Below, in pieces: positions 14,791 through 53,200 of a stretch of 64,000 nucleotides of DNA. Where the stretch lies: NCBI RefSeq assembly GCF_032854445.1, contig NC_088304.1:8381704-8445703 (forward strand), written 5' to 3'. A program made the position numbers and the translations under genes. The notes under the pieces were generated by a model that did not search any database, had not been told where the DNA came from, and was given only the letters and a program-made list of their open reading frames with translations. How positions within the stretch are numbered: position 1 is the stretch's first letter; every line of letters starts with the position of its first letter. Source of the stretch: Liolophura sinensis (Eukaryota; Mollusca; Polyplacophora; Chitonida; Chitonidae).

Positions 14791-17700
14791 GTATATATGC
14801 ACCAAAGTCAACATGGTGAAAGAGTTAGGAGATATAGATGTTGAAAATAACTACATTGTAACTGTATAAATCATCAAAAGACCTTAAATTAAAAACAAAA
14901 ATTGTTGCCATGGTTTTTCCTTATCAGTTTCTTTAAACTCTTTCATTTTTCATATATATATAGAGGATATTGCACAGTGAAGGTTGAATACCATAAATAT
15001 TGTTCGAGTGAGAGGTGGAAATGATAATCCACAAGACGTGAAGTAGTTCCGGCAAGGTCATCTTTGGACCTCGGGTCAAGGTCTTCAGCAGTGTAATAGC
15101 CAAATGTAATAACAAATGTGATATTTAACTAGTGAAGATATCATTTTTATCAGTGAAGGAAATACTGGGATTTGACTGATGTATAAATAATAAATATAAA
15201 ATAATTCACTCTCAGCCAACCCTATTTTTTTATAGTGTCACTATCAGGTATGATGAGCAGTCTGTTCGCAAAGATGTACTGTACTCTAGAAGTGTTAGTA
15301 TTTCATCTTGTTGAGCCAAGCTGAGATACGTCACCAAGTGCAGCATCGTATCTGTGACACTATTGAAGTTTTAAGTTAGAACTCTTTTAGTGTTGGGGCC
15401 TCCGTGGCTCAGTCGGTTAGCGCACTAGCGCAGCGTAATGACCCAGGAGCCTCTCACCAATGCGGTCGCTGTGAGTTCAAGTCCAGCTCATGCTGGCTTC
15501 CTCTCCGGCCGTAAGTGGGAAGGTCTGCCAGCAACCTGCGGATGGTCGTGGGTTTCCCCCGGGCTCTGCCCGGTTTCCACCCACCATAATGCTGGCCGTC
15601 GTCGTATAAGTGAAATATTCTTGAGTACGGCGTAAAACACCAATCAAAAAAAAAAAAAAATCTTTTAGTGTTAAGGGTGAATAAAGTTCTGCTTTATCAT
15701 GTGGCCGGTCAAATATGTCAGGCAGCTATTATTGAGAATTAAAGAGTTTGAACTAGAAAAACCTCTCTTGGCTGGTGAAGATGTTAAAATTCGGGCTTGA
15801 TGTCTTCTGTTTTAGACCCACCCCAGTATCCGGGTGAAAGGCACAGAAGCTAACTTCACCCCATCACAGTGTACAGATCCAGCCTGCACCTACAAGGCTC
15901 CCCATATGCACTGCCCCTTCTGCATGAAGACAGACAGCTATGTGGACCCTGTCATTCTCAAGATGCACTACAGGGTCAAGCATGTCGATAAGGGTGTTGA
16001 CTTTGCTGGTATGTTGTGGTAGTGTGTCTCTTAATTCATGTAGCTAACAGCAGCCACTGTCAGTCACTCACCTTGTTCTGGTTAAGGCCCTTGCTTACTC
16101 AGATGGTTAAAGCGCTGGTTTGCAGAAACCCATGAGTTTGTGTGTGGGTAATCAGCTCTTGCTGTTATGCCTCCAGCTTGACGTCAGATAAGGTACCTGT
16201 CAAGTGGCAGTGATGTGTGCCAGTTTCCTCTACCTATAAAGCCTGACTGCTGTCATACATCGTACATTTGTATTTTAAGTGAAAAATTCTAGAAAGCAGC
16301 ATGCTGCTCTTAATGTGTTTAGGGCCCTGGGGAAAAATAAGCCAGTGACAAGGCTCGTGTGACCATTTGCATAGTCAAGTGTTCATTTGCAGAGTCAAGT
16401 GGTCATTGAAGACCAATTGTCACACGTAGGAAAGTTAATCAGTAACTTGCCAAAAGTGGATGGTTTATACCCAGTATTCTGTCTTCCTCCTGACTGCCAT
16501 CATATAGGTGAACAATTCTCGAAGGACATCAGTGTCTGTAAATTAGGGAAATGACATACATGTGCATGTAACTTCAGGTGGATATTCATGCAGATTTACA
16601 TATGTGTACATGTATCATCGAGAGATTTTGTCCATATACATGCACATGTACTACGTGGGATGAAGTTGTAATGTCATTTTACCCCTGTATATTTAACAGG
16701 TCTGAAAATTCTGCGATGTTGTGATCGCTGTGAAATTGTGGGAGCTATCAAGGGAGAGAAAACATTCAAGGGAGCTCACTGGCACTGTTACAAATGTCGG
16801 AATGGCTTTAATCGACGAGATGAGGCTGTTAAACACTACAAGACTCATTTCAGAAACCCAGAGACGACATTTCAGATCCAGATTTCTCAAGTGGAGGTGT
16901 GTAATCTTTTGTTTTACATTTCTGGGGAGTTCAGGGCTTATCTTTGAAAGATAGATTTTGGGAAAGGGCCATTGAGCCCACACAGTTGGGAAGAATTTAA
17001 TGCTGACAGGCACGTGTTTGGAAAGAAGGTGTTGTGTGTTGGTTAACTGTTCATTTACACTCAAATGTAGTTAAGTGTTGTTTATAGCTATGTTTGAATG
17101 TGTGTCAATGCTCTCAAGGGCAAGGGGTCATGGGGCCTGTGTGGCCAAGGAGTTGCAATGACCCAGGAGCCTGTCACCAATACAGTCACTGTGAATTCAT
17201 GCTGACTTCCGCTCTGGACGTACGTGGGAAGGTCTTCCAGCAACTTGCAGATGGTCGTGCATTTCCCCTGGGCAGAGCCAAGTTTCATCCCACCATAATA
17301 CTGGTCATATAAGTGAAATAATTTTGAGTACAGCATAAAACACCAATCAAAGAAATGAGTCAAATGGGTAATATGGGGGCAACAAAAGCACATGTTGGTT
17401 TATAACATGTATGATGCAAAATTTGCAGTCTTCAGCAAGAACCCAGTGTTGAACTGAGCTGTTCAGTTTCTTTTAGTGTGTAACAGCATGGGCTGTTGTT
17501 CACTCTGCCCAAGACCTGGATTTGCCTCTGTACTCGAAACCACTATTTGGCTTGTTGAAAAGACAAACACATCTTTTTTACCAGGATTATGCATACCTGT
17601 ATTTAATTTCCTGATGTGGTTGATCTTGTTGTTGTTGACAGGAAAGCCTGCGCGGTCAGACAGAAGTCACATCGGGAGGTAACCTGATATCTGACCAGGG

Positions 17701-20700
17701 TCAGGACGTTACTATACACCCAGCCCTGACAGAGGCTGTTATGTCCTCATCAGCTCTTGCCAATGGTTAGTCTGCTGTTATGGTGGGAGATTGCTCTGTC
17801 TTTAGCTTCAGCAAAATTTTGTTTGGCCAAGTATGATCCAAAAACCAAATGTCAGAGCGCACTCCATTTATAAACCTGATGCAGTTGCCGTAGCAGTTTG
17901 TCAAGGTATTTGCAACAAAATCTACCTGTCCAATAAGTTTCCATGACCTGAAGTCACAAATTGTTCCTTATCTTTTTGCCTGCAGATTTCTCTAAAGCAC
18001 GGCGTCAATAAGTTATTTTTCACGTTGTATCATCCTGAGATTCTTTGGTATTGCTCAAAGTGACAAGGTGTACTGCCAAACTCGACATATTTGACAAGGA
18101 CAGGTAACTGCATTGGGTTTATGATGTATAATTCTAATAAATTTGCACCCTAAATACAGCTGGAAATTTTTGTACCTTTTACTGTTCCTGGTTGTCACAC
18201 TGGGCTTTGAAAAACTTGAAAGAATACAAATACTTGGTTTTTTTAATGCTAGATATCACATTACATTACATCTGAAATGGAGAGATCAATAAAGACTAAC
18301 TTGGCATACATAAATTTCCACATAAATGTATGTACTAAAATTGGTAGTTCCTTGAAAGTGCTGGATACAGCAGGATAAAACTGGTGGAAACCCTTTTCTT
18401 TCATGGTTGAGAATCCTGTCTTCTTCTTGTATTCCATTATGTTATAAATGTACCGGCCCGGATGGCACAGTTGGTAGAGCGTCCGCTTCGGGAGCGGTAG
18501 ATCCAGAATCAATCCTGGGTCGAGTCTAAGACACCTAAGACTTTAAAAGAGGAAGTTGTAACTTCCTCGCTTGGCGTTCAGCATGAAGGGGATAGTACAA
18601 TGACTGGTTGACCCGTATCAGTATAATGGCTCGGGCGGCATGGCTTACTTACCTTCAGTAAGTCATCTCAGTGAAGCAGCACTAGATAAAAGAGCGATGG
18701 AAATCTGTCCTGCGACAGGGGGCACATTACATACACCCTAAGGATTCCTTTGTCCTCATATGACTGAAAAATTATTGAGCACGATGTTAAGCCCCAAGCA
18801 CTCACTCATTCTTATAAATTTTAAAGAGGAGCCTCTATGGCTGAGGGGGTTAGCATGCCAGCATAATGACCCATGAGCTGTCGCTGTGAGTTCCAGCCCA
18901 GCTCATGCTGGCTTTCTCTTTGGCCATATGCAGGAAGCTCTGCAGCAACCTGCAGATGGTGGTGGGTTTTCCCTCGGGCTCTGCTCGGTTTCCTCCCTCC
19001 AAAATGCTGGCCACTGTCATATAAGTGAAATACTGGTATTCTTAAGTATAGTGTAAAACACGGATCAAATGAATAATTATAAATGTTAAAGAATGTAATA
19101 TTCCAATACACACCACGGACCACCAGTTACATGGATGTCATTTTGCTGTATGTAACATGCAGCATGCATCGATGTGAAAAAATTTACCAGGTCGGGTCAT
19201 ACCAAAGACTTTACAAAAGTGGTACTTGTTGCCGTCTTGCTAGGCGCTCAGCACTGAGAGGTTAAAGAAAGGAAACAGTGCTGGGTGGTCCAGTGCCAGT
19301 ATAATGTGACAGGGTGGGGGTGTCTTGTCTGCTATCTCCGGCACGACACTTCAGTGGCGGCAGCATTTTGCCAGCGAGGACTTGCCCTGCCACAAGAAGA
19401 CACTGTAGTGTATGTGTAGACACACCTAATGACTCCTCGTCTTCATATAACTGAAAAATTGTTATGTACAACGTTAAACTCCAAGCATAGATATGTACAT
19501 ACAAAGAAATTTAGCAACTGTCTTGGTAACCTGTTACTCAAAAAAATGATACCATTGAATCTTTCTCTTTTTCGTTTTTAAGTGAAATAATGTTTTGTTT
19601 GTTATGAAAGACCAGTTACTGGCAAATATATCAGAGTTATGGATGTTATCTTATGTTTTTTCAGGTGTTGGCAGAAGAAGCTCAACATCGACCAATGGGA
19701 AAGGAGATAGAGAAGTTCAAGTGCCTGTAGCAGCCAATGAAACAGTTGGGTCTACAGAGGGTCAGACAATCATGATCATACACGAGGCTGACATGGAGAC
19801 GACTCAGACCATAGACAACTCTTACACTGTTATCCCAGGAGAAGATGTATGCAAATTTGTGCTTTACTGAACCTTGCCGTGTGGTTATGGTGCTTACCTT
19901 TCAATCACTAGGTCATTAGTGACATGGACGTCCCATTCTCAGAGAAAGAAATTTTCAAGATTCCCCGTGTTTCTGCTGTTCTTGACTACCAAATAGTATA
20001 TTGACCAATGGCCAACTGTTTAATACAGAACATAACTGCCATGTAATTAACATTGTAATTTTTTTTTTTTTGATAATGTGAATAATAGTTGGAAATTTGG
20101 AATTATGTCCTGCTCAAACTGAAAAATGTTTTTCGAGTCTTGTTTTTGGACCTTGGTCACAATACCTGGTGGTTGGTGTTTTCTTTGTGTGGTATTGCAT
20201 AAAAGTTTGCACATATGTCACACAGAGGAATGTTTGTTTACTCTGAGGGCGTTCAAGTTTTCCTGCAGTGGCTACCGTTGCGAAAAATTCTTGAGTTTGG
20301 TTAAAAAGCATAACCAAAAAGTACATGTAACTTTTAAAAAAATTATCATCCTGAACCTTTCAGGAATTGTGACTAAAGAATTATTGCTGTGTAAAGGTTT
20401 GTGTTGTGTAAAGAATTGTCAAACTGATTGGATATTAGAAAATTAAAGTATTTGTCAGTTAGGTAAATATTCTTTCTGCAACCATTTTGATACTCCTTCT
20501 ACAGGGATTGAAATTAACTTTTTGAGAACTTGCCATTAAAAAATCCTGCATGCCTATAACCCTGATAAAACTACTTGCTTTCGACCCTTGCTCGTCTTAT
20601 TACAGTTTCTTTGTATCTTTGTTACAGTACAGTGATGATAACAGTGCTGTGGATAGTGTTTTGGAGGAGTTAGCAGTAAGCCAGGATCAAGATATCCAGA

Positions 20701-22738
20701 AAAAGTACAGACAGCTTCAGCAACAGTGTCGGCAACTAGAATCAGAGAAATCTGAACTGAAGGCTGAGCTACAAGAGCTAAGAACAAAGGTAGGTAACTC
20801 TTACTGACACCCAGCATGAATACAGATTGCTCCAGCAACAGTGACGGCAACTAGCTTCAGAGATACCTGCGCTTAAGGATGAGTTACAAGAGTTCAGAAC
20901 TAAGGTAGGTAACTCTTTCGTACACCCAGCAGAAATACTGACAGCTCTAGCAGCAGTGTCTGCAGTTTGAATCAGAGAAATCGTCAAAGCTTAGAACTAA
21001 GTTAGGTAACTCTGACTGACATCCATCAGAAATACAGATTTCTCCAGCAACAGTGTTGGTAACTAGAGTCAGAGAAACCCCGAGGCAATGAGGTAAAAGG
21101 GCTCAAAACATAAGAAGCCTTACCATAGGTGACTAACTGACATCAAACAGAATTGCTGACAGCTTCACCAGCAGTGTCAACAGCTAAGAGTAAGAGAATC
21201 TAACTACCCACTCTGAGATACAAGTGGTCAGAACTAAGGTAAATAACTCCTGCTGACATTCAACACAAATAGACAGTTCCAGCAACAGTGTCAACATCTA
21301 GATTGAGATGGCTGAGCCAGAAGAGCTAAGAACTAAGATACAGTAGGTACATGTATCTCTTACTAACATCTCCAACACTTAGTACAGAACTCTTCAGCAA
21401 GTGTTGGCAGCTGGAGTCAGAGAAATGTAAGAAAGCTGAGCTACAAGAACTGAGACAGGTAAACTGACATCCAACACAAAGAAATCTGAGAGTTCAGAAC
21501 TAAGGTAGGCAACTCTGCTCACAGAGGAAATGCAGACAGCTCCAGCAACAGTGTTGACTGCTATTACTATCATAAATTTGGATCAGAATACATGTTTGCA
21601 CATGTATTGAAGACCATTACGCATGCATTTACATGTAGAGGTGTGACATGAGGATTACCCTATATTCTGGTAACAGCCCAATCAGTTATTATTTGGAGTT
21701 GGGGGAGGGGGCTTAGTGGCTCAGTGGTTGGTGTGCTAGTGCAGCACAATGGCCCCAAGAGCTTCTCGCCAATATGGTCGTCATGAGTTCATTCAGCCCA
21801 TGCTGTCTTTCTCTCCTCATGCATGTGGGCAAGGTCTGCCAGCAACATGTGGATGTTTATTGGTTTCCTCCAGGCTCTGTCGAGTTACTTCCCACCTTAA
21901 TGCTGATTACTGTATTAGAGGTGAATAAATAAATAAATCAATTTTTGTTGTTGGTTAGTATTAAATTTTCATTTAAATTTACTGTTTTTTATTATAACAG
22001 CTTAAAACCCAAACAGAGATGTTGAGCAAGTGCCAAAGACGAGAGCAGGATTTATTGCAGCAGCTAAGCGTCCCTCTGGACAAAGCGACGGAGGATCTAC
22101 TGAAACAACTGGAGAAAAACCACAAGGAGCTTCTGCACCAGCAACTCGGGGCCCTGCGTCGTAGCTACCTCAATCAGCAGAGCAAAGAGCAACAGACTAT
22201 CACAATACCCAGCGCAGCATTGCAGAGTGCAGTTCTGGGTGCAGAATCAGGCTCCATTTCAATCACGATACAACGCAACGATATGGCTGGTGACGGACTT
22301 GGGGAGACACATGGCACTACATTAGCAGTACAGCAGTATCCAGACCATGTGCAGGACAGCCCTGGAGAGTTTGAGCCCAGCGAATCCTGCAAAGTGATCA
22401 GCACCGCAGATGGTTCTGTCGTTGGACTTTTTTCCGTTACGCAGCAGTCCCAGCTATCCGTTGCGCAGCAGTCCCAACTGTCCGTTGCTGCTCCGTTTGA
22501 TGCGTCGTGTGCCTCGTCAGACTCTCAGGCTGTAACACTCACCACATCAGCTGCGGACACTTATGACACTGGTTTGACGACGGTCATTGATTCCTCGGAT
22601 CTTACTTTTACTACAGTTCCAAGCATGCAAGTGGAACAGGCTTCCCCTGACATCCGAAGCTCAGAGTCACATGAACAGACGTCAGCAGAAGATCCGCCAG
22701 CAAAACGCAGTAAACATGATTCAAGGCAAGTCGTGTAA
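14247..22738 (+). CDS. Zinc-finger and coiled-coil protein, family not recognised
   Basis: Exons 14247-14261, 15816-16008, 16700-16896, 17642-17765, 19665-19846, 20628-20789 and 22001-22738 join in frame to 536 residues. Two zinc fingers share one layout. The first has C24, C29, then H35-x-H37-C38-x2-C41 and H56-x4-H61. The second has C76/C77, C80, then H96-x-H98-C99-x2-C102 and H115-x3-H119. A Thr/Ser/Gly-rich part follows. Residues about 238-320 form a Glu/Gln/Leu-rich coiled coil. The C-terminal part is Ser/Gln/Thr-rich with a duplicated QQSQLSVA and ends in a basic stretch PAKRSKHDS, a likely nuclear signal. A nuclear DNA- or protein-binding role is inferred only. An in-frame ATG at 14103 would add 48 residues but overlaps a CRE. 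The exon 3 donor could be 16890 or 16896; both keep frame. The first exon is the least certain part. Confidence 0.8.
14737..14786. repeat. (TA)n microsatellite
   Basis: About 25 uninterrupted ta units in intron 1 of the zinc-finger gene. Confidence 0.95.
15395..15660 (+). mobile_element. SINE family A, full length with target duplication
   Basis: Head gcctccgtggctcagtcggt has a tRNA A box, and gtgagttcaagtccagc a B box. The body and tail end in aaaacaccaatc plus poly(A). It is flanked by the 12-bp direct repeat tcttttagtgtt at 15383-15394 and 15661-15672. The exact duplication and intact head indicate a fairly recent LINE-mediated insertion. It lies in intron 1 of the zinc-finger gene. Confidence 0.95.
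16087..16300 (+). mobile_element. Possible SINE with a different tRNA-like head
   Basis: Starts gcccttgcttactcagatgg then ttaaagcgctgg, resembling a tRNA A-box region, with 'aacccatgagtttgtgtg' downstream. The end has ttttaagtgaaaaattctag, similar to the middle of other SINE tails here. It is in intron 2 of the zinc-finger gene and is diverged. Confidence 0.45.
17128..17356 (+). mobile_element. SINE family A, diverged
   Basis: The sequence follows family A from 'gggcctgtgtggccaagg' through gcagatggtcgtgcatttcc to acagcataaaacaccaatca. Several small deletions are present, for example in the head. It is in intron 3 of the zinc-finger gene. Confidence 0.8.
18451..18811 (+). mobile_element. SINE family B, full length
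   Basis: The tRNA-like head ggcccggatggcacagttgg tagagcgtccgc has CGG at the anticodon position. The body carries aggaagttgtaacttcctcg, and the tail reads catatgactgaaaaattatt then acgatgttaagccccaagca. Both sides carry ttataaat (18443-18450 and from 18812), consistent with a target duplication. Confidence 0.9.
18827..19076 (+). mobile_element. SINE family A next to the family B copy
   Basis: Flanked by a 15-bp direct repeat with one mismatch: ttataaattttaaag at 18812-18826 and ttataaatgttaaag at 19077-19091. The head is gagcctctatggctgagggg, and the tail ends gtgtaaaacacggatcaaat. The left target repeat is also the right flank of the family B SINE. Confidence 0.9.
19170..19490 (+). mobile_element. 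SINE family C, 5'-truncated
   Basis: Shares with 62915, 36000 and 40594 the body 'ggtacttgttgccgtcttgc', tggcgctcagcactgagagg-like sequence, the gtgacagggtgggggtgtct block, the cttgccctgccacaagaaga block and the tail actgaaaaattgttatgtac. Its tRNA-like head is missing. Confidence 0.75.
20790..21560 (+). repeat. Tandem array of decayed copies of coding exon 6 of the zinc-finger gene
   Basis: Starting at the exon 6 donor (20789/20790) there are about seven degenerate repeats roughly 115 bp apart. Each has a copy of cagctccagcaacagtgt, then of cagagaaatctgaactg and agagctaagaactaagg, and usually a gtaggtaactct-like donor string. Anchor positions are near 20833, 20948, 21043, 21163, 21277, 21393 and 21540. 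The copies have stops and frameshifts, so they look like pseudo-exons rather than used exons. Confidence 0.85.
21712..21945 (+). mobile_element. SINE family A, diverged copy
   Basis: Head gggcttagtggctcagtggt is tRNA-like. The body reads gcatgtgggcaaggtctgcc agcaacatgtgg, and the end is ggtgaataaataaataaatc. It sits between the pseudo-exon array and exon 7. Confidence 0.75.
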
Positions 22739-34811: not shown

Positions 34812-37800
34812 ATGATGCCTACAGGTACACATACTCACACGTATATATGTATATAGTGGATATTTGCCTTAATACTGCCTGATATGTAAGGGGTGAAGGG
34901 GATTCCAGTGTACAAAAGTACGATTAAAAATTTTTTTAACAAATAATTACTTTCCGTATTGTATTTATTTGCTGTCTTGTTTTTCAGAGGTACTTAGCGA
35001 GCATCAAGTGGATTATAAACATAAATATAAGGCCCTCAAACGCAAACTCAAGTTTCTTGTTTATGTGAGTATTTTTGCTCTAAATGTGCACCTGTGTTTT
35101 ACTCCACAGGGGTGTTTTTGAGTGGTGTTTTACACTGTCCTCAAGAGTATTTCACTTAAACGTCATTGTGGTGGGAGGAAACCCACCAGAGCACGGGGAA
35201 TACGCATAACCATCTGCAGGATTCCGCCTCAGGGATTTGAACAGAACAGAATGCCTGATACATAACCGATATGTTGTAAACCTGTGGCCAATATGTTGTA
35301 AGCCTGTAACCAATATGTTGTAAACCTCTAATCATTATGTTGTAAACCTGTAACCAATATGTTGTAAACCTCTAATCAGTATGTTGTAAACCTGTAACCA
35401 ATATGTTGTAAACCTGTAACCAATATGTTGTACTCCTGTAACCAATATGTTGTAGACCTCTAATCAATATGTTGTAAACCTGTAACCAATATGTTGTAAA
35501 CCTCAAGTAGTGTGCTGTAATGCAGTTTGATGCAACATCAAGATTTTATTGAATGAAGTTGTAGTCTTTCTTATGCTGTTGTACATGTCCATTTAAACTG
35601 TGAATAGGATTTACTAATGGGCCAAATACTAGAACATTTTAATACCCTTTACATGTGCCCGAATTCTGTCATACCTTTAAAAAGATAAAATTATGGAGAA
35701 TGTTTCTTGATGAATTTAACTTATATTTCAGAATTTTTCTAAATTATTTATATTCATATGAACCAAGTGTACAAAGATTTATATGTAATATTTTAGCCCC
35801 AATTTAGCCTGCTAAAGGGGTTCCTAAATTCAAGAGCTGTATTTTTGCCATGGTACATGTATACATGCTTGTAAATTGAAAGAAAAAAAAATTCTACACA
35901 GGCAGGCTGAGACGTGTCAGTGATAATGAAGCAAACTGATATCATTTCTTTACCATATACAGTATGCATGCTGGCCATCTTGCTTACATGAAGTTAGACC
36001 ACCTTGGTGGCCTGATAGTTAGATTGTCTTTCTGAAGTCTGGAGACCGGGGGATCTAATCCAAAGCCAAAAATGGTACTTGCTGCTGCATCGCTTGGCGT
36101 TCAGCACTGAGAGGTTAGAGCAAGGAAGTATGACTGGTTGGCCCTGGTGTCAATGTAATTTGACTGAGTAAGGTGTCATGTCTAGTGTCTTGTGCATGAT
36201 GGGCACTTTCTGCCATATTAAATGTACCCACACCTAAGGGCTCCTCATTATATGACTGAAAAATTGTTAAGTACGACGTTAAACATCAAGAATACATACA
36301 TAAGTGTAGTTATTGTTTTTTTTCATGTCATGTTGCCCTAATTAGTGGACTGACTACCCTAACTCTTGTCTGACAGTGACATATTTACAGATATGTTGGG
36401 ACTGCTGGGCACCCTAACTGTACAGCTGATAATTGTTCTGTGGTCAATATTTTCAGGAGCAAGAATGTTTTATGGAAGAACTGAGAAAATCACAAAGGAA
36501 ACTTTTGAAAATCTCCAGAGACAGAAGGTGAGCATACTGAGATTATGTTAATTCTTAATGAATGGGATTTAATTAAGTAATAGATGCCTAAGCCAGTGAT
36601 CTTTGTAGCCGTGGTATTTTCCTGGCTTGGAACAAAGTACAAGGAGATAGACCTAGTATTGCTCTGCCCAGTGTCTGTGTACAGTGCACTTTGACTGGTA
36701 AAAGTGTCACGTACATGTACGATGTTTGCTGCATGGCATTCCATTGAGGCAGCACTCTGCAAGGAGGCACTGTTGTGATATGAGAATGAACAGAATGAAC
36801 AAGTGTGTTGTAGTCATTGGACATTTAAATCCATTCAGGCTCCCTAACGGGTAAATGTACAAAACAGGCCCTGCTCAGCAAATAGCAAAACACTTACTGC
36901 GAAAAGGCCGAGAAACAGTTTCTGTTAAAACACCCAAGTTATTCATATTTTGATTTGGATAAGTGTTTATTTACATGTATAGACCCTAAAATTTTGATAT
37001 ATTATAAAACAATAATACTAGTCATAATGGATAAAAAGAAGCACATTATTACATGTATTAGTCCGTGTTTTTTTTCCTTAAAGTTTAATAAGCAGTAAGT
37101 ACTGTTCAAAAAAGCTATGGAACTTTTGACGTAGATATGATACATCTAGTGTACCATTTTAGCTTGTCTGTATAAAGTACAGGGGTAGCTTATGTTGTAC
37201 CCTGAGAGTATTGAGCTCAGGGTTTGCACACATGTAGATTACAATAGCACAAGAGGGGGATATTCCATAGTTCATTGAATGTGTGTACATTAAGTACAGT
37301 AAATTACTGAATTCCTGACTTAGTGTATTGTGTATAAGAATCAATGTTAAACAAAGGGGTAATTTCTCAAAAAGTACCGCGTGTATTGAGCTCAGGGTTT
37401 GCACGAATGTAGAGTAGAGTAGCATAAGGGGGATATTCCATCGATTGATTCGGTGTGTACATATTAAATGCTGTAAGTTACTGAATTCCTGACAAAGTGT
37501 ATTGTGTATAAGAATCAATGTTAAACAAAGGGGTAATTTCTCAAAAAGTACTGCGTGTATTGAGCTCAGGGTTTGCACAAATGTAGAGTAGAGTAGCATA
37601 AGGGGGATATTCCATCGATTGATTCGGTGTGTACATATTAAATGCTGTAAGTTACTGAATTCCTGACAAAGTGTATTGTGTATAAGAATCAATGTTAAAC
37701 AAAGGGGTAATTTCTCAAAAAGTGCCGCGTGTATTGAGCTCAGGGTTTGCACAAATGTAGAGTAGAGTAGCATAAGGGGGATATTCCATCGATTGATTCG

Positions 37801-38576
37801 GTGTGTACATATTCAATGCTGTAAGTTACTGAATTCCTGACTAAGTGTATTGTAGGGGTGGTATCTTAAAAAGTATCGTATGTAATGATTTGAAGTTTAG
37901 ATGCATGTAAAGCACAATGACGCAAGGAAGATGTTCCATTGCTGATGTTCTGAGCAAGTTAATTACCGTAAATTACCACATTTTTATGCAATGAGATGAA
38001 GTTTTGGGTTCATATTCCTCGTACAGGCGAGCTTTTTGGTAGCCTTGCTACCAATTGTAAGTTTTTCTTCTTATTTGTACACCTAGCTTTCTCCTGGATC
38101 GTCTGTTACAACATGAGAAGATTGACGACTCTTCTGGTGATTCTGACGCCACGGCAACCAGTGACAGTGAAGGCGAAGGCCATGGTAGCCCAGCCAAAAA
38201 GTAAGGCTGCTCAAACTTCACATGTGTTTGCTATTGAATCTTTTTATTATTCGAGGGAAAGTACAAGTTTAAGAGTTTTAGGACATTCTCTAATTTATTA
38301 AAGAACTTTTAAAGAGTGCTTTTTACCACTGATTGCCCCCAAGGATTTCAACAAATGAAGATTCGCTGTCTTAGGCTGGACCAACAACTTGTGTGTCCAA
38401 GCAAGAAAGACAAGTGTATAACCACACTTGGCCAGAATCCACCCTACGTTGTTTATGCTTTTTCTTGAAAAACCCTTATTTAAAATATACATACAGAATA
38501 TGGTAATATGTAGTATCTTCTAGCCGTTCTCAACTATCATGCTCTCTCTCTACCTTGCCTGTTGAATATTATGTTG

Positions 38577-38982: not shown

Positions 38983-41900
38983 AATGTCATACTTATTGCC
39001 TTCGACCCAGTTTTTCATTCATTTGATAACCAAAGAAAATGTTATAATTTTACACTTGACTGTCTCCATGTATATCTGTAGTCTGACATTTGTGCATTCG
39101 TGTTGTTTTATTATTGTGTGAAGTTGATTTTATAGCACACAAAGGTCAGATGGATATGGGCAATCTGGTCAGGTGGAATATTTTTGGCAGTTAGTTGGTA
39201 GTCTGTTTCTTTTACTGCTTTGATGTGTGAAACACAAGCTTGTCTTTACATATTAGGATGAGATTGTTCATTGTTGATTGGCCTTCACAGCGGTGTATTG
39301 TTTAAAGGTGGATAACACCATGTCCTTGACCTCCACAGATCTCATTTGACAACATGGACTGGAACAAAATGTGAAATATTGGGTCGAAGGCAAAGACATT
39401 TGACACATCGGTTGAAGGCAAAGACGTTTGACATATTGGTCGAATGCAAAGATATTTGACATAGCGATCGAAGGCAAAGACATTTGACATAGCGGTTGAA
39501 GGCAAAGACATTTGACAGCGGTTCAAGGCAAAGACATTAGACATAGCGGTTGAAGGCAAAGACATTTGACAGCGGTTGAAGGCAAAGACATTTGACATAG
39601 TGCTTGAAGGCAAAAACATTTGACATATTGGTCGAAGGCAAAGACATTTGACATAGCGGTTGAAGGAAAAGACATTTGACAGCGGTTGAAGGCAAAGACA
39701 TTTGACATAGTGGTTGAAGGCAAAAACATTTGACATATTGGTCGAAGGCAAAGACATTTGACATATCTGTCGAAGGCAAAGACATTTGACATAGCGGTCG
39801 AAGGCAAAGACTGCTCAACATATTCCACTTCTATTGACGAAATGTGCCTGACATTATTGTCATCATTATTGATGCTAAATATTGATATAATAAAAATACT
39901 ACAATGGCAGTCAAGTGGGAAATGTACATCTACATGTTCATGAGGGAATATTCTTCTTAAAGGAAAAGACCTCTAAAAATCAAAGTAGGTATCACTAAAT
40001 AGACACTCCAAACTATGCACAAATATACATTTATTTAGTTTTTTTAGATTTTTTGGGAAAAGAGTTAAAGGTGCTCAAGCATTTGAATTCTGAGGTGGGC
40101 TTTATAGACCATGCAATCAGAGGCGAGGAGCTCTGACGTCACAGGAATTTTATCCCACTCTAATCACAACGCTGAATGTTTGAATAACTCCTTTTACGTA
40201 TGAGTAAAACATTACTGAAATAATGTTCCCAAAAATTCCTTCCTTCTGGTGAACATCAGGAAAAAAAGGTGATGTGACGTCAGAGTTCCTAGATACCATC
40301 ACTATGGCTCATAAAACCCACCATTGTATTAAAATATTTGAATGCCTTTCAACACTCTTAAAAAAATCTAAAAAAATACATGCAAGGATTTTTACACATA
40401 GTCTCCAGTTGTCTGTATGTTGAATCTTACTTCATATTTTAGCTTTCTTTTACTTTAAGAGGTTAAAAAGCTGCTTTTTTGCACTGGCTCTTACCTGCAA
40501 CTTATAAGGTCAGCCATATATTCATCACATTCCCATTTGACCAGGCACAATGTATGTCAGGACTTTGGTCTCATACTTTACAAGGACAAGGAACTGCTCC
40601 AGTGGCCCAGTAGTCGAGAGACCTGGGATGCAACCTGAGAGGGGTAATATCGAAGACTTTAAAAAAAATGGTACTTGCTGTTGCCTTTCTTGGCACTCAG
40701 CACTTCAAGGTTGGAGAAAGGAAACAGGACTGGTTGGCCTGGTGTCAGTATAACATAACTGGATGGGGTGTCATATCTGAATGTCTTTGGCATGATACTT
40801 CAGTAATGGCTGCAATTTGTCAGCATGAATTCACACAGCCACAAAAACTGGAATATATATATACACTCACCAAATGACTTGCCGTCGTCATATGATGGAA
40901 AAATTGTTATGTACGACGTAAAAACCCAAGCATGTAGAATCAAAGTACGAGTCAAAGTGTATGAAGAAAATCAGTAAAATGAGTTGTTTTAATGAAAAAC
41001 CTTCTTTTGTACACAGCACTCCACACAAGATGGCAGCAGAAAAAGACCCAAGGCAAGTAACAAGCGGGCAAAGACAAGTAAGTTCAGCAATAATGTGTAA
41101 CTTCAGTAGCTTCTGTTTTATCACGCTCTACATTTCTGTAGAACCATGTGTTGAGAAAATAGTACTGCTTATTCATATACATGAAGATCAGGTAACTCAA
41201 AGACGTTTAATAAGGAATGCTAACGAGGCCATGAGATGGACCATGTTAGAGGAACTGGAAACACAATGTCGCACCACTTGTACCCTAAGGAAAAATGGCT
41301 TAAACACAGGTTGTATATACATCTCTCGTCTGATTGGATAAACTTATGACATGGCAGATCATTCAGTTCTCTCAAAAATAAGAAGTTGTGGTTTTTAAAC
41401 TTTCTGTGGGACACTTTATTGATGCATAAATAGATTTGGTCTAGTGCTGTCTTTTATTGTAAAGAGATGATGCCTGAAAAAAAAACTTAGATTGTATCCT
41501 TCCGCATCAGGCACTCCGAAACAGTCCCAGAGTAAAGTGGGGAGCGTTCACAGTGAAGAGAGTAACATGCCTGGCCAGATGACACGAGAGCAACTGGAGC
41601 GCCATCTGGAGACTCGACACTTCATCGGTATCGAGAAAGCACCCGCTAAACTCCCCATGGAAATATTTAGCAATGAAAACTCCAACCCTGAAAGGTATCT
41701 GGTCTCTAATTTCAGTAAATTGTTCAAGTTAATAATTTTTTAACTTAAACCCAACATGTAGTGTTTCTCCAAATGGCTGAAGACATTTCTTACTTAACGG
41801 CATATGTTGAACCAGGGAGGTGTCTCAGTGCCTTTGAGATGCCCAGTGCTCACAAAATTAACATGGGTTAGATAGGGAAAATAGGAGAAAATTGGAAATG

Positions 41901-47255: not shown

Positions 47256-50200
47256 TTAAGATGGAGGGTCAGGCAGCCGCCGTTTAGGGGTTGTTCTCTG
47301 GAAACAAAAACAGATTTATGTATTTATACTATATAATATTCTAGAAAACAATGCATATGGTTTAATAGTGTGATAATCTGATTTTACTACATGTGACATC
47401 TAGAGTACTACATGCAGATACCCATCATTCTCTAAGTCGATTAACAAAAACCACATAACTCCTAAACATGTGAACAACATGTAGTTCTAAATAAAATATA
47501 TTACCTCTCAAAAGCCACTTTCACAAAACTTCTTCCATAAATGGCATCGCCTTATGGCGTTAGAACCTATAAGCAACATCACTGTATGAGAAATCTTATG
47601 AGAAATATGACTTTTTGAAACTTTTTTGTGAAAGTGGTTTTGTATTTTTTTAATTTATTTATCTGATTTGTGCTTCACGCCGTATTCAAGAATATTTCAC
47701 TTATACCACAGCGGCCAGCATTATGGTGGAAGGAAACCCATGACCATCTGCAGGTTACCGCAGGACCTTCCCACTTACAGCTGGAGAGGAAGCCAGCATA
47801 AGCTGGACTTGAACTCACAGCGACCGCATTGGTGAGAGGCTCCTGGGTCATTACAATGAGCTAGTGCTCTAAGCAACTGAGCCATGGAGGCCCCCAGAGT
47901 GGTTTTGTAAGAAAACAAACTAAGTATTGTATTGGCTTTAAATATCTGACAAAAATAGCTGGTCTACTTAAAGCACTCCAGTTTCCTATAGAGCACTTAG
48001 CTAAGTAAGCCCTTAACTATATGTAACATGACAAAACACGTGTTGTAGCTATACATGTCACTCAGCTAAGTGCACAAAACGTGTTGTATAGCTATACACG
48101 TCACATAGCTAAGTGCACAAAACGTGTTGTAGAGCTATACACGTCACTTAGCTAAGTGCACAAAACATGTTGTAAAGCTATACAGGTCACTTAGCTAAGT
48201 GCACAAAACACGTGTTGTAGAGCCATACACGTCACATAGCTAAGTGCACAAAACACGTGTTGTAGAGCCATACACGTCACATAGCTAAGTGCACAAAACA
48301 TGTTGTAGAGCTGTACATGTCACTTAGCTAAGAGCACAAAACATGTTGTAGAGCTATACATGTCACTTAGCTAAGTGCACAAAACACGTGTTGTAGAGCC
48401 ATACATGTCACATAGCTAAGTGCACAAAACACGTGTTGTAGAGCTATACATGTCACTTAGCTAAGTGCACAAAACACGTGTTGTAGAGCCATACACGTCA
48501 CATAGCTAAGTGCACAAAACACGTGTTGTAGAGCCATACACGTCACATAGCTAAGTGCACAAAACATGTTGTAGAGCTATACAGGTCACTTAGCTAAGGG
48601 CACAAAACATGTTGTAGAGCTATACACGTCACTTAGCTAAGGGCCACTTGAAAATGAAAGCGGCCGTTCATCCCATGAGACACCTAGATGTAGATTTACC
48701 TGTATATCAATTCTCGTGTATTTTCTTGAGTGCAGCATAAACACTAATCTAAGAAATAAATAAATTTTTGTGCACAATTTCTAACAATACTAATTTCACC
48801 ACTTTTAGCATTCACTAATCAAGAGGACTGCATTTTTTGTGAGCAATCTTTCGTCATCTTTGTCTGAAAGATAATGCTGTTTAAGGACTGATTAAAGACT
48901 AAAATTGACTGAACACTGCATACCTTGGTTGGCCCGGAAAAAACTTGATTCCCGCTTCTTCTAGGGTTTGATGAAGACGTAGTGCTCCCTGGATGTCTTA
49001 CAGATGAGTTACTCTGTGCTTCTCGTGCCGACGTGTTACTCACTGACTGCCTAACCAATGAGCTACTTGGTGGTTGCCTTGATGACAAGCCTCTTACAGA
49101 AGGCTGGAATGACATCCCATTGGCTGCTCCTTCATCACTTCCTTCTCTCTGTCTTGATGTCCTACAAAGGTTTATTAAGGAGAAGAAAACATAAAAATCA
49201 TGCCAAAATCAGATGAAAGAGCGTCAAAACTTATTTGCAAATATGACATTTATTTATTTATACGATAAATGTTTATAATATTTTTTTTTTTTTGGGACCA
49301 ACTTTTGGTATTTATCGTTGTTGCATAAGAATGTTCTAAAAAAGGATGTGATGCTTGTCTAATAAATTTATCTGAATGTAAATTTGTTGTTTAAACTGAA
49401 ACATATGCATTTAACCTAAATTATCATAATATTTATGAACATATTAAAAATATAAATATGATCCAAATTGAAATTTAATACATTTGTTAGCTGAAAATAA
49501 CAAATTCTAGTGCAAAAATGTTTATTAAATGCAAAAATGTTTATGTGTTACGTCCACATTTATGACATTATTAAACAAATACTATAAATACCAAAAGGTG
49601 GTCCCAAATACCCACCATACAAAAATTATTTTCAAGCGTCTTTTTCTCCTTAAGTCTGGAAAAAATATTGAAGACAGCATTTAGGAATAACTTTTCGCAC
49701 TCTTTCATCTGAACTTCATGTCGTTTTTATGTTTTCTCCAACTTTAAAATTAAATTTTATTTCACAGCTTCACTTGTGTTCATGAAATTTATTATTGCCC
49801 ATAGTACACATATGTCATTGTAACAAAATTTGTATGTAAGCTTTAGACTTTAGTGCTGAATCATTACTTACATTACAACACTTAGACATAGCGGCAAAAC
49901 GAACAACTCCGGACAGAGGAGTTATGTCCCCATGGATCCGCCTGAAGTTTAACCTAATCCACCCTTTATTTCACTAACAAGTAGAACCTATGTATCTCTG
50001 TGGCTTGTGCTTTGTTATCTGCCACTGTCAGCCATAGAGAATAAGGAGGCCTGCTACTTTAACAAGGAGGCCACATATTTCCTAATCCCCCTAGGTGGCG
50101 CCCTTCTCAAGCCGGACCTTGAGCCATTCTTACGTCAAAAATGGATTTTAGCGTAATGTCAACAATATCACAATGTATCAACCATGATGATGAGGTGGGA

Positions 50201-53200
50201 AAGGAACATTTGACGTCAATAAAATGATGTCGAGGTCCTGTTGCCAGGCGTTTGACAGGTCCCCATAAAGATAACAGATAATTTTCACAGAACTAGTATT
50301 TTTTCTCTGCACCAAATCAAATGCGTATGCCATCTCAACTCAGCCAGAAGCACAAGGTCATAACTGCCATCAGTGCGAAAAATCAAACCAAAACAATAAT
50401 GTCAGCAATAAATTTCCGTCAAGCTCCGTCCACAATTACTTCAGGGTAATCCGAGTAGCAACATCATGGAAGTAGTTACCGGCCCCGATACCACAGTTGG
50501 TAGAGCACCCGCTTCCGGAGCAGTAGATCCAAGGTCAATCCTGGGTCAAGTCACACCTAAGACCTTAAAAGAGGAAGTTGTAATTTCCTCACTTGGCGTT
50601 CTGCATGAAGGCAATAGTGCTAAGACTGGTTGACCTGCATCAGCTCAGGCGGGGCGCCTTACTTGCCTTCGGTACAGCGTCTCAAGTGAAGCAGCACTAG
50701 ATAAAAGACCGGTGGAAATCTGTAGTGCAACAAGAAGGCACATTACATGCACTCTAAGAATTCCTTTGTCGTCATATGACTGAAAAATTTGTGGGATTTG
50801 TTACTATTTCATGCAGGACAAAATACTGAGGAGCGAAAATGTGTGTTTGATCTTAATTAAGCCAGCAATGTCTCTGTACATATCAGTGAAAGTATATGTA
50901 CAGAGTCTAGTGACAAAGATGCACAGTATGTACCCTAAGTGGGCACCTTACCTTGTCGATCTACCTTCTCCCAGAAGTGTCCGTTGACCTCCTGTTTGTT
51001 TTTCTCGATTATTTCTCTGTTTCACTGCTTTATGGGATGGCACCAGTTTGGGCTTCACTGCTGCAGAAGCAGAACTTTCTCCCAGTAAATCTTCATCAGA
51101 AATGTTGTGATGGATACTGCTTGAGGGCAGTTCTTCATGCGGATGGGCTTGTGACCTCTGACCTGAGTCATGTGACGAGATATTTTCAGTCTGGCTGAGT
51201 GGTTGACGGCGTCTTGTAACAGGCTGAGATGGCAATGTCTCTCTGTTGACCTTCATCTTCATCAAAAACGACGGCTGTGTAGTCGCCCTTTTTGCACCAT
51301 TAGTGCTACCTGCAACTGGCATATTTCTCAAATTTACTGCCTTTGTTGCTTTTTCTCTCCCACCAGGATTACAGTTAAACATTTGCAACTTGGGATCTTC
51401 TTGGTGCCGGCTTGACCGAGATCTTGGTGCATTTGATGATCTGGCAATGTTGGACACCTTCTCTTTTCTGGTGATGTTGTTGTTTTTCACCTTAGCCTGG
51501 ACTGCTGGGCCTGGAGCGTCAGGGGTGTCAGGTCTGGGAGCCCCTTCAGCCTCACACACAGCCTACAACAATATATCACAATCAGGAGCAGGTTGATGCA
51601 GGTACATGTACTGTTCTGCTCCAGCCTAACGATATATCTGGCACGCAGGTGGAACGGAACATCCGCATAGGAAGGGCGTAATATCAGAGCAAGGTGTTCA
51701 AATCATACGCCAATCGTACAGCCAAGACGGGTGTACCATCCGCGTATGATGGGCGCAGGATTTTATAACATATTCTAACATTCACACGTAAAATCACGTA
51801 ACTTATGACAAACACTGCGTTGTTCGACTCCAATATTATTTGTTCTCTCTGAATAAAAAAAAAATATTCACAAACAGCCTGGTTCCGACGTGGTCACTAA
51901 TTCGCACATAATCATGATAGTATGCAGATCATGTTTTGACTGATTAAGCAATCATTCAGTAGATGCAAGCCATAACCTACATGTACAATACACCATTTTC
52001 TTCAGTTCAAAATTTTCTGAGGAAGTCAGTCTAAGTACCAAATATAATTAACAGTTATAACAGAGCTTATGCATGTACATGATAAATTAGGCACCACGAA
52101 TAGCTAATTTGTAATATTACCACAGCTTTTGTTGCGCACTTGCATCACTCCGGTTGTCCAGGAATGCGGTTGTGATTTTACATTTCCACAAACGCTGATA
52201 ATCTTCATTGAGAAACGGGAAAGCAAAACTCGGAAGTCACGCACTTGGCTAGCTCACATTTTTACTAGCTTGAATGAGTGAGAGTGAAGCGAATGTCGGC
52301 CATTCAGTAATACTCACTATGTCTTGTCTACCTTACCAATACCACCTATACAGTACATGTATATCAGACATACATGAAGGATGGACGGATGATATGTGTA
52401 GAGTATATCGTTAGGATATAGGCTGTAGGCATGGTAGGACAATTTTATTTTCTTAATTCACAGTAACTAAAAAGATAGGGATTGTACGACACTGTATTAA
52501 GTTTCACAGAATCTTACTCAAGCCCATTTCCCTGGTCTCAAGGCTGGTTATCTATCATGTTTACACAGATATCATATGTATCATTTACGATTCATTCAAC
52601 CCTTCTAACTGAACATACATTTTGACCAACGAATTACAGACATACCTGGTGTTGAACCAAGAAGTCCAGAGGAAGTAAAGCTTTACAAAATTCACATGGT
52701 AACATGGTATCCTCGTGCTCCAGTCTGTCTGGAATATCAGCACCTCTAAAAAGGACAAAATAATACAAAATAGTCATGAACAATTGTTGCCAAGTTTCTT
52801 GGGCACCCACGTTACTGTGGAAACTTTGTGGACAAGTCACTGGGGCAACATTGTGGGCAAGTCACTGGGGCAACATTGTGGGCAAGTCACTAGGGCAACT
52901 TTGTGGGCAAGTCACTGGGGCAACTTTGTGGGCAAGTCACTGGGGTAACTTCGTGGACAAGTCACTGGGGCAGCTTTGTGGGCAAGTTACTGGGGCAATT
53001 TTGTGGTCATCATTGATTGAGGTAACTTTTTAGGCAACTTATTTGGAAAAGTGTGTGGGCAATTTTTTTCGGAAAAAATTCATGGATAAGTACCTTAATT
53101 ATATAATAAATAGTTTTTTTCTTTTCACTTTTCTTGTCAACCTTCACTACATCATAATGGTGATATTTATGCTTCTACAAAATACATGTACCAGATTTTC

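Follow-up and report, generated by a model that had tools for sequence, protein, structure and literature searches.

A decayed tandem array across the exon 6 donor junction of a Liolophura sinensis gene, and similar arrays at sampled exon edges

When pieces of a coding exon recur in tandem within the intron that follows, the copies could be former exons, spare splice sites, or the residue of a repeat that spans an exon-intron junction. This question is raised by a gene of the mollusc Liolophura sinensis that lies within the window, the whole stretch of 64,000 nucleotides analysed here (contig NC_088304.1). Exons 5, 6, and 7 of the gene (Table 1), read from 19667, make up 360 residues in phase 0, open as far as the terminal stop; exon 6 is bounded by the acceptor tttgtatctttgttacag| and the donor aag|GTAGGT. 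The portion of exon 6 that belongs to the repeat has a weakly heptad-like spacing of hydrophobic residues, which continues into exon 7 (best register 11/19 in a simple tally), and the coil part of the gene gives weak coiled-coil Pfam matches that fall below the curated cut-offs. A Pfam search with the cysteine- and histidine-rich exons of the gene returned no family, a PDB sequence search with the gene gave weak matches to C2H2 zinc fingers (best E 0.014), and an Rfam search of the window found nothing at the gathering score. Exon 7 carries a coding repeat of its own, a 24-bp unit present in frame in 2.3 copies at 22433-22488 (Tandem Repeats Finder).

An earlier note on this DNA had described all of exon 6, with the first bases of its intron, as recurring in decayed tandem copies. 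The repeat unit, 115 bp in length, does contain the 3' end of exon 6 joined to the start of the intron, but only the last 82 bp of the exon are included. Copies adjoin this unit without a gap from 20823 onward (six near-complete, one shortened, and one partial); the last of them ends near 21592 rather than at 21560. Counting the copy within the exon, it consists of about nine units of ~115 bp, which is of minisatellite size and comprises at least three units. Local alignment of 20700-20822 against 20823-22000, with 200 dinucleotide shuffles as the null, gives scores of 80-146 for the six near-complete copies and of 48 and 41 for the two fragments, compared with 44 for the best shuffle. Seven of the eight aligned pieces exceed this value, and c7 (41) alone does not. 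Tandem recurrence is therefore borne out, with the six near-complete copies far above the shuffles. The near-complete copies are 67-82% identical to the unit; the identities quoted are those of the local alignments, global pairwise values being inflated by free gaps. Tandem Repeats Finder covers the first part of the array alone (2.4 copies, period 115). Outside 20600-22000, the unit scores at most 36 against either strand of the window. In a genome search with the unit, all four scored matches, the query included, lie at the window locus, and among the matches listed, none outside this locus was a second copy of the unit or a paralogue of exons 5-7. Just downstream of the array, at about 21700-21930, is a tRNA-derived-SINE-like repeat, one of a set of mutually related dispersed repeats seen by eye also at about 15390-15660, 17090-17350, and 18830-19070.

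Table 1. Exons and array units, in window positions. Identities (identical/aligned columns) are from local alignment to the unit.
Feature	Positions	Strand	Alignment	Identity	Remarks
Exon 5	about 19665..19846	+			approximate start; ends in phase 0 at donor gat|GTATGC; in-frame join to exon 6
Exon 6	20628..20789	+			162 bp, 54 codons; phase 0 at both ends; open frame; coiled-coil-like 3' part
Exon 7	22001..22738	+			phase 0 join to exon 6; acceptor outside array
Unit c0	20708..20822	+			82 bp exon + 33 bp intron; functional copy
Copy c1	20823..20937	+		94/115	donor aag|GTAGGT retained at 20905
Copy c2	20938..21032	+	20940-21034	78/113	18 bp deleted; GT of donor now TT; displaced donor-like tag|GTAACT at 21006
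Copy c3	21033..21149	+	21035-21149	82/122	11-bp insertion immediately 5' of donor
Copy c4	21150..21269	+	21151-21271	90/123	donor-like aag|GTAAAT at 21239
Copy c5	21270..21368	+	21272-21368	74/111	exonic 14-bp deletion, 11-bp insertion at donor, intronic 13-bp deletion
Copy c6	21369..21476	+	21381-21476	82/113	7-bp deletion immediately 5' of donor; cag|GTAAAC at 21459
Copy c7	21477..21527	+	21489-21523	29/36	large internal deletion; donor-like aag|GTAGGC at 21505
Copy c8	21528..21592	+	21528-21588	44/62	partial last copy, end uncertain

The array is very probably an aged minisatellite that spans the exon-intron junction (a "mirage"), in which the outermost copy is functional and the others decay neutrally. 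Tandem duplication, presumably by slippage or unequal exchange, would have copied the 115 bp from within exon 6 to 33 bp into the intron, with every new copy landing within the intron. The first donor would still be used since, by exon definition, it would be the sole donor that a short, open exon links to the acceptor at 20627. Selection would then hold the outermost copy only, because the longer forms that extend to later donors all meet a stop, and the remaining copies would decay. When exon 6 is extended to any of five later donors, this stop is reached at codon 60, which is the sixth codon beyond the true donor.

The changes within the copies agree with such a history. Relative to the copy consensus, changes in c1-c6 are spread evenly over codon positions 1, 2, and 3 (32/142, 26/147, and 27/140, respectively), and 20/156 cells are changed in the intronic columns. 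At six exonic sites, some of which rest on few copies, it is exon 6 that departs from the consensus, and five of the six are third positions. Because exon 6 differs at third positions while the changes in the copies are even, coding constraint appears to have persisted on the first copy as the remaining copies decayed. A direct count of c1-c7 against exon 6 yields an excess at third positions (21/152, 17/155, and 38/162 at positions 1, 2, and 3), which we attribute to change in exon 6 itself, each copy then repeating the difference. The same differences bear on the idea that exon 6 acquired its 3' end by recruiting the first unit of a minisatellite already present in the intron. Tandem arrays are indeed abundant beside exons of this genome (see below); however, an exonic part that differs from the copies chiefly at third positions (5/6), and whose weakly heptad-like spacing runs into exon 7, makes this origin very unlikely. 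From the coding constraint alone, we infer that the direction was from exon to intron, and not that an intronic repeat was recruited as the end of the exon.

Could the copies instead be relics of tandem exons that were formerly spliced to give a longer coiled coil? The earlier note had proposed remnants of an expanded coiled coil. The exonic part derives from a single coding phase of an exon that is in phase 0 at both ends, and the array allows seven stop-free pseudo-exons of 36-57 nt that preserve the frame. However, the units lack an acceptor. Neither the acceptor, as the earlier note had judged, nor the first 80 bp of the exon recurs in the array (score 23, compared with scores of up to 37 in 200 simple shuffles). 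Furthermore, a unit of 115 bp is not a multiple of three, a stop lies just 3' of the donor, every unit contains a stop in the exon-6-like frame (read by eye), and the exonic parts of neighbouring copies were separated by only about 33 bp. The pyrimidine tracts of the pseudo-exons are weak (at most 0.65 versus 0.76 at the exon 6 acceptor), and the changes in the copies show no preference for third codon positions. An expanded coiled coil is thus scarcely credible, though some past splicing of the pseudo-exons is conceivable. Whole-exon tandem duplication, which underlies mutually exclusive exons, also generates tandem copies of exon sequence; here the acceptor is not repeated, half of the exon is missing, and the copies contain stops and frameshifts. 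On the other side of the intron, exon 7 with 40-bp flanks gives a best score of 37 against the 1,500 bp upstream, which is within the range of shuffled scores.

The donors of the array suggest another role, also raised in the earlier note, namely that the copies act as decoys. More broadly, they might be decoy or U1-binding donors, partly selected, that regulate the splicing of exon 6 or guard the pre-mRNA from early cleavage. Donor-like sites are in excess: there are ten of at least 6 bits in 20791-21591, compared with a maximum of nine in 1000 random window segments, as scored by a donor matrix not trained on the Liolophura sinensis genome. In addition, the donor columns match the consensus in 41/48 cells, versus 329/450 for other exonic and 110/162 for other intronic cells. 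However, the excess is accounted for by homology to the first donor, because an array that copies a donor multiplies donor-like sites, and the donor columns are not uniquely kept. The donor block ranks only 10th among 106 nine-column blocks, and the best-kept block is exonic (around 20718-20729). Nor is the donor present in every copy, as had been thought; most copies have a donor or donor-like site, but one has lost its GT to TT and three of the six full copies have indels at or beside the donor, so that four of the six are affected in all. A decoy function therefore seems unlikely. We see no need to invoke selection on the array donors, and some selection of this kind would still be compatible with the sequence.

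Is the array, if an aged minisatellite across a junction, an isolated accident? To place it within the genome, two samples of coding exons were used. Chaperonin genes, the source of the second sample, are essential. The kinase sample consists of the first 40 matches no longer than 345 nt, taken in the order of the 138 listed, with 1 kb on each side; 30 loci (L005-L034), mostly long open frames, were left out. The chaperonin sample consists of 40 of the 50 PF00118 matches listed, with 750 bp on each side, the omissions being the two longest matches, one of 366 nt next to one of these, and the final seven of the list. Tandem arrays are present at the exon edge in 7/80 sampled exons (4/40 kinase and 3/40 chaperonin), which belong to six genes by position. 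In the kinase set, L038 and L041 have arrays on the acceptor side, and L053 and L062 on the donor side; the chaperonin arrays (L079, L087, and L090) are all on the donor side. One further kinase locus, L042, was too weak to be counted (scores of 53 and 55; 84/137 and 107/179). Chaperonin locus L088 was dropped despite passing the numerical test, as its chaperonin match runs into the flanking arrays; with L088 the count is 8/80. The L088 exon apparently lies directly between two arrays, one with 27/333-bp and one with 41-bp units.

Two measures compare edges, interiors, and flanks, and both are rough, since the flank regions partly overlap and were counted as intron without recourse to annotation, and since some matches stop at the edge of a domain instead of that of an exon. 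Probes of 100 bases recur nearby at 9/160 edges, 1/53 exon middles, and 27/240 random flank places, and these counts are identical at thresholds of 50, 60, and 70. L088 supplies the sole exon middle and two of the edges, without which seven edges recur. By Tandem Repeats Finder (period of at least 20), arrays in the kinase set cover 7/6475 bases of the exon matches, 4/80 edges, and 6.4-8.8% of the flanks. The corresponding values in the chaperonin set are 305/4033 bases, 5/80 edges, and 10-13% of the flanks; here 236 of the 305 bases are from L088, 62 from L090, and 7 from L079, and two of the five edges are those of L088. Thus, exon edges are struck by arrays at about half the rate of the flanks, and interiors are largely spared. 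There is no sign that junctions are a special target. Because the flanks of exons are rich in arrays, and arrays in the samples cross exon edges and spare interiors, the window array would be one old member of a class that is common in this mollusc genome.

Several of the sampled arrays repeat a real donor. L079 has eight CAG|GTGTGT donors (9.5 bits), mostly 66 bp apart. In L090, AAG|GTGAGT (12.3 bits) occurs four times, and 142 bases of the exon edge are copied exactly. At the kinase exon of L062 (1211-1536 in gene orientation), a first donor of 8.2 bits is followed at intervals of 65 bp by four copies of 11.2 bits and one of 9.0. The chaperonin profile continues past the arrays of both L079, whose match ends at model position 385 and is followed by that of the next exon (L101) starting at 384, and L090, whose match ends at 395 and is followed by that of L096 starting at 392. 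This continuity without an insert would fit use of the first donor. In L079 (940-1424 in gene orientation), the 66-bp unit corresponds to whole codons, and the first unit looks stop-free in frame by eye; a later donor, if used, could add 22 residues per copy. The window array would represent the old end of the age range and L062, L079, and L090 the young.

Two studies of amphioxus (PMC3087553, PMC3902484) describe "mirages," minisatellite-like tandem duplications across an exon-intron boundary, at either edge of an exon, in Adh3 and the globins BflGb6 and BflGb9, with similar cases in PGBD5 and troponin C. The units are 10-160 bp, many contain splice signals, and for Adh3 and the globins normal splicing is reported despite the repeated signals. 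The window array is likewise tandem, of minisatellite size, and built on a unit that spans the boundary. This likeness is one of structure, seen in genomic sequence; one copy of the locus was found in the assembly. Unlike the amphioxus cases, its host is a mollusc, and it is more decayed than BflGb6, for which 81-100% identity is given. Intron gain by tandem duplication, as described in PMC4974935, also involves a duplicated segment that crosses an intron-exon boundary, as the segment in the window does. In the window, however, the acceptor of intron 6 at 22000 is outside the array, and no new intron has arisen. The accessible account of earthworm metallothionein, in which duplications of the fourth exon are absent from the transcript and intronic minisatellites are present, may concern a related case, whereas that of a Conus intron study contains nothing of the junction-array kind. 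In the open-access literature searched, the name mirage is confined to amphioxus and no report of mirages in molluscs was found; the present arrays, including those in chaperonin genes, are in a mollusc.

Because similar arrays lie at 7/80 sampled exons, the formation of junction arrays looks like a common and little-noticed mode of change in the Liolophura sinensis genome. We entertain, at somewhat less than an even chance, the wider idea that junction duplication in the mollusc lineage is frequent and continuing, with arrays from fresh to decayed, independent of that in amphioxus, and that it keeps supplying alternative exon ends and new introns and provides a natural series of experiments on the choice among identical donors. 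Arrays that repeat the real donor exactly (L079 and L090) or in a stronger form (L062) could probe whether that choice is governed by the strength of a donor, its order, or its distance across the exon. Junction arrays, if common in molluscs, would matter as well for intron gain and for errors in the gene models of genomes rich in repeats. Among other domain searches, Haemocyan_bet_s (PF14830), which had no match in 14 prokaryote control genomes, gave eight matches, all on the same strand of a single contig and spread over some 11.5 kb. Eight such units in succession are the mark of molluscan haemocyanin, so that this result, too, very probably places the window in a mollusc. Arrays with a period of at least 20 cover 4.5% of the window (Tandem Repeats Finder). 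Other arrays in the window, with periods from 12 to 176 bp, lie at 35263-35503, 37208-37853, 39382-39811, 48031-48641, and 52814-53006.
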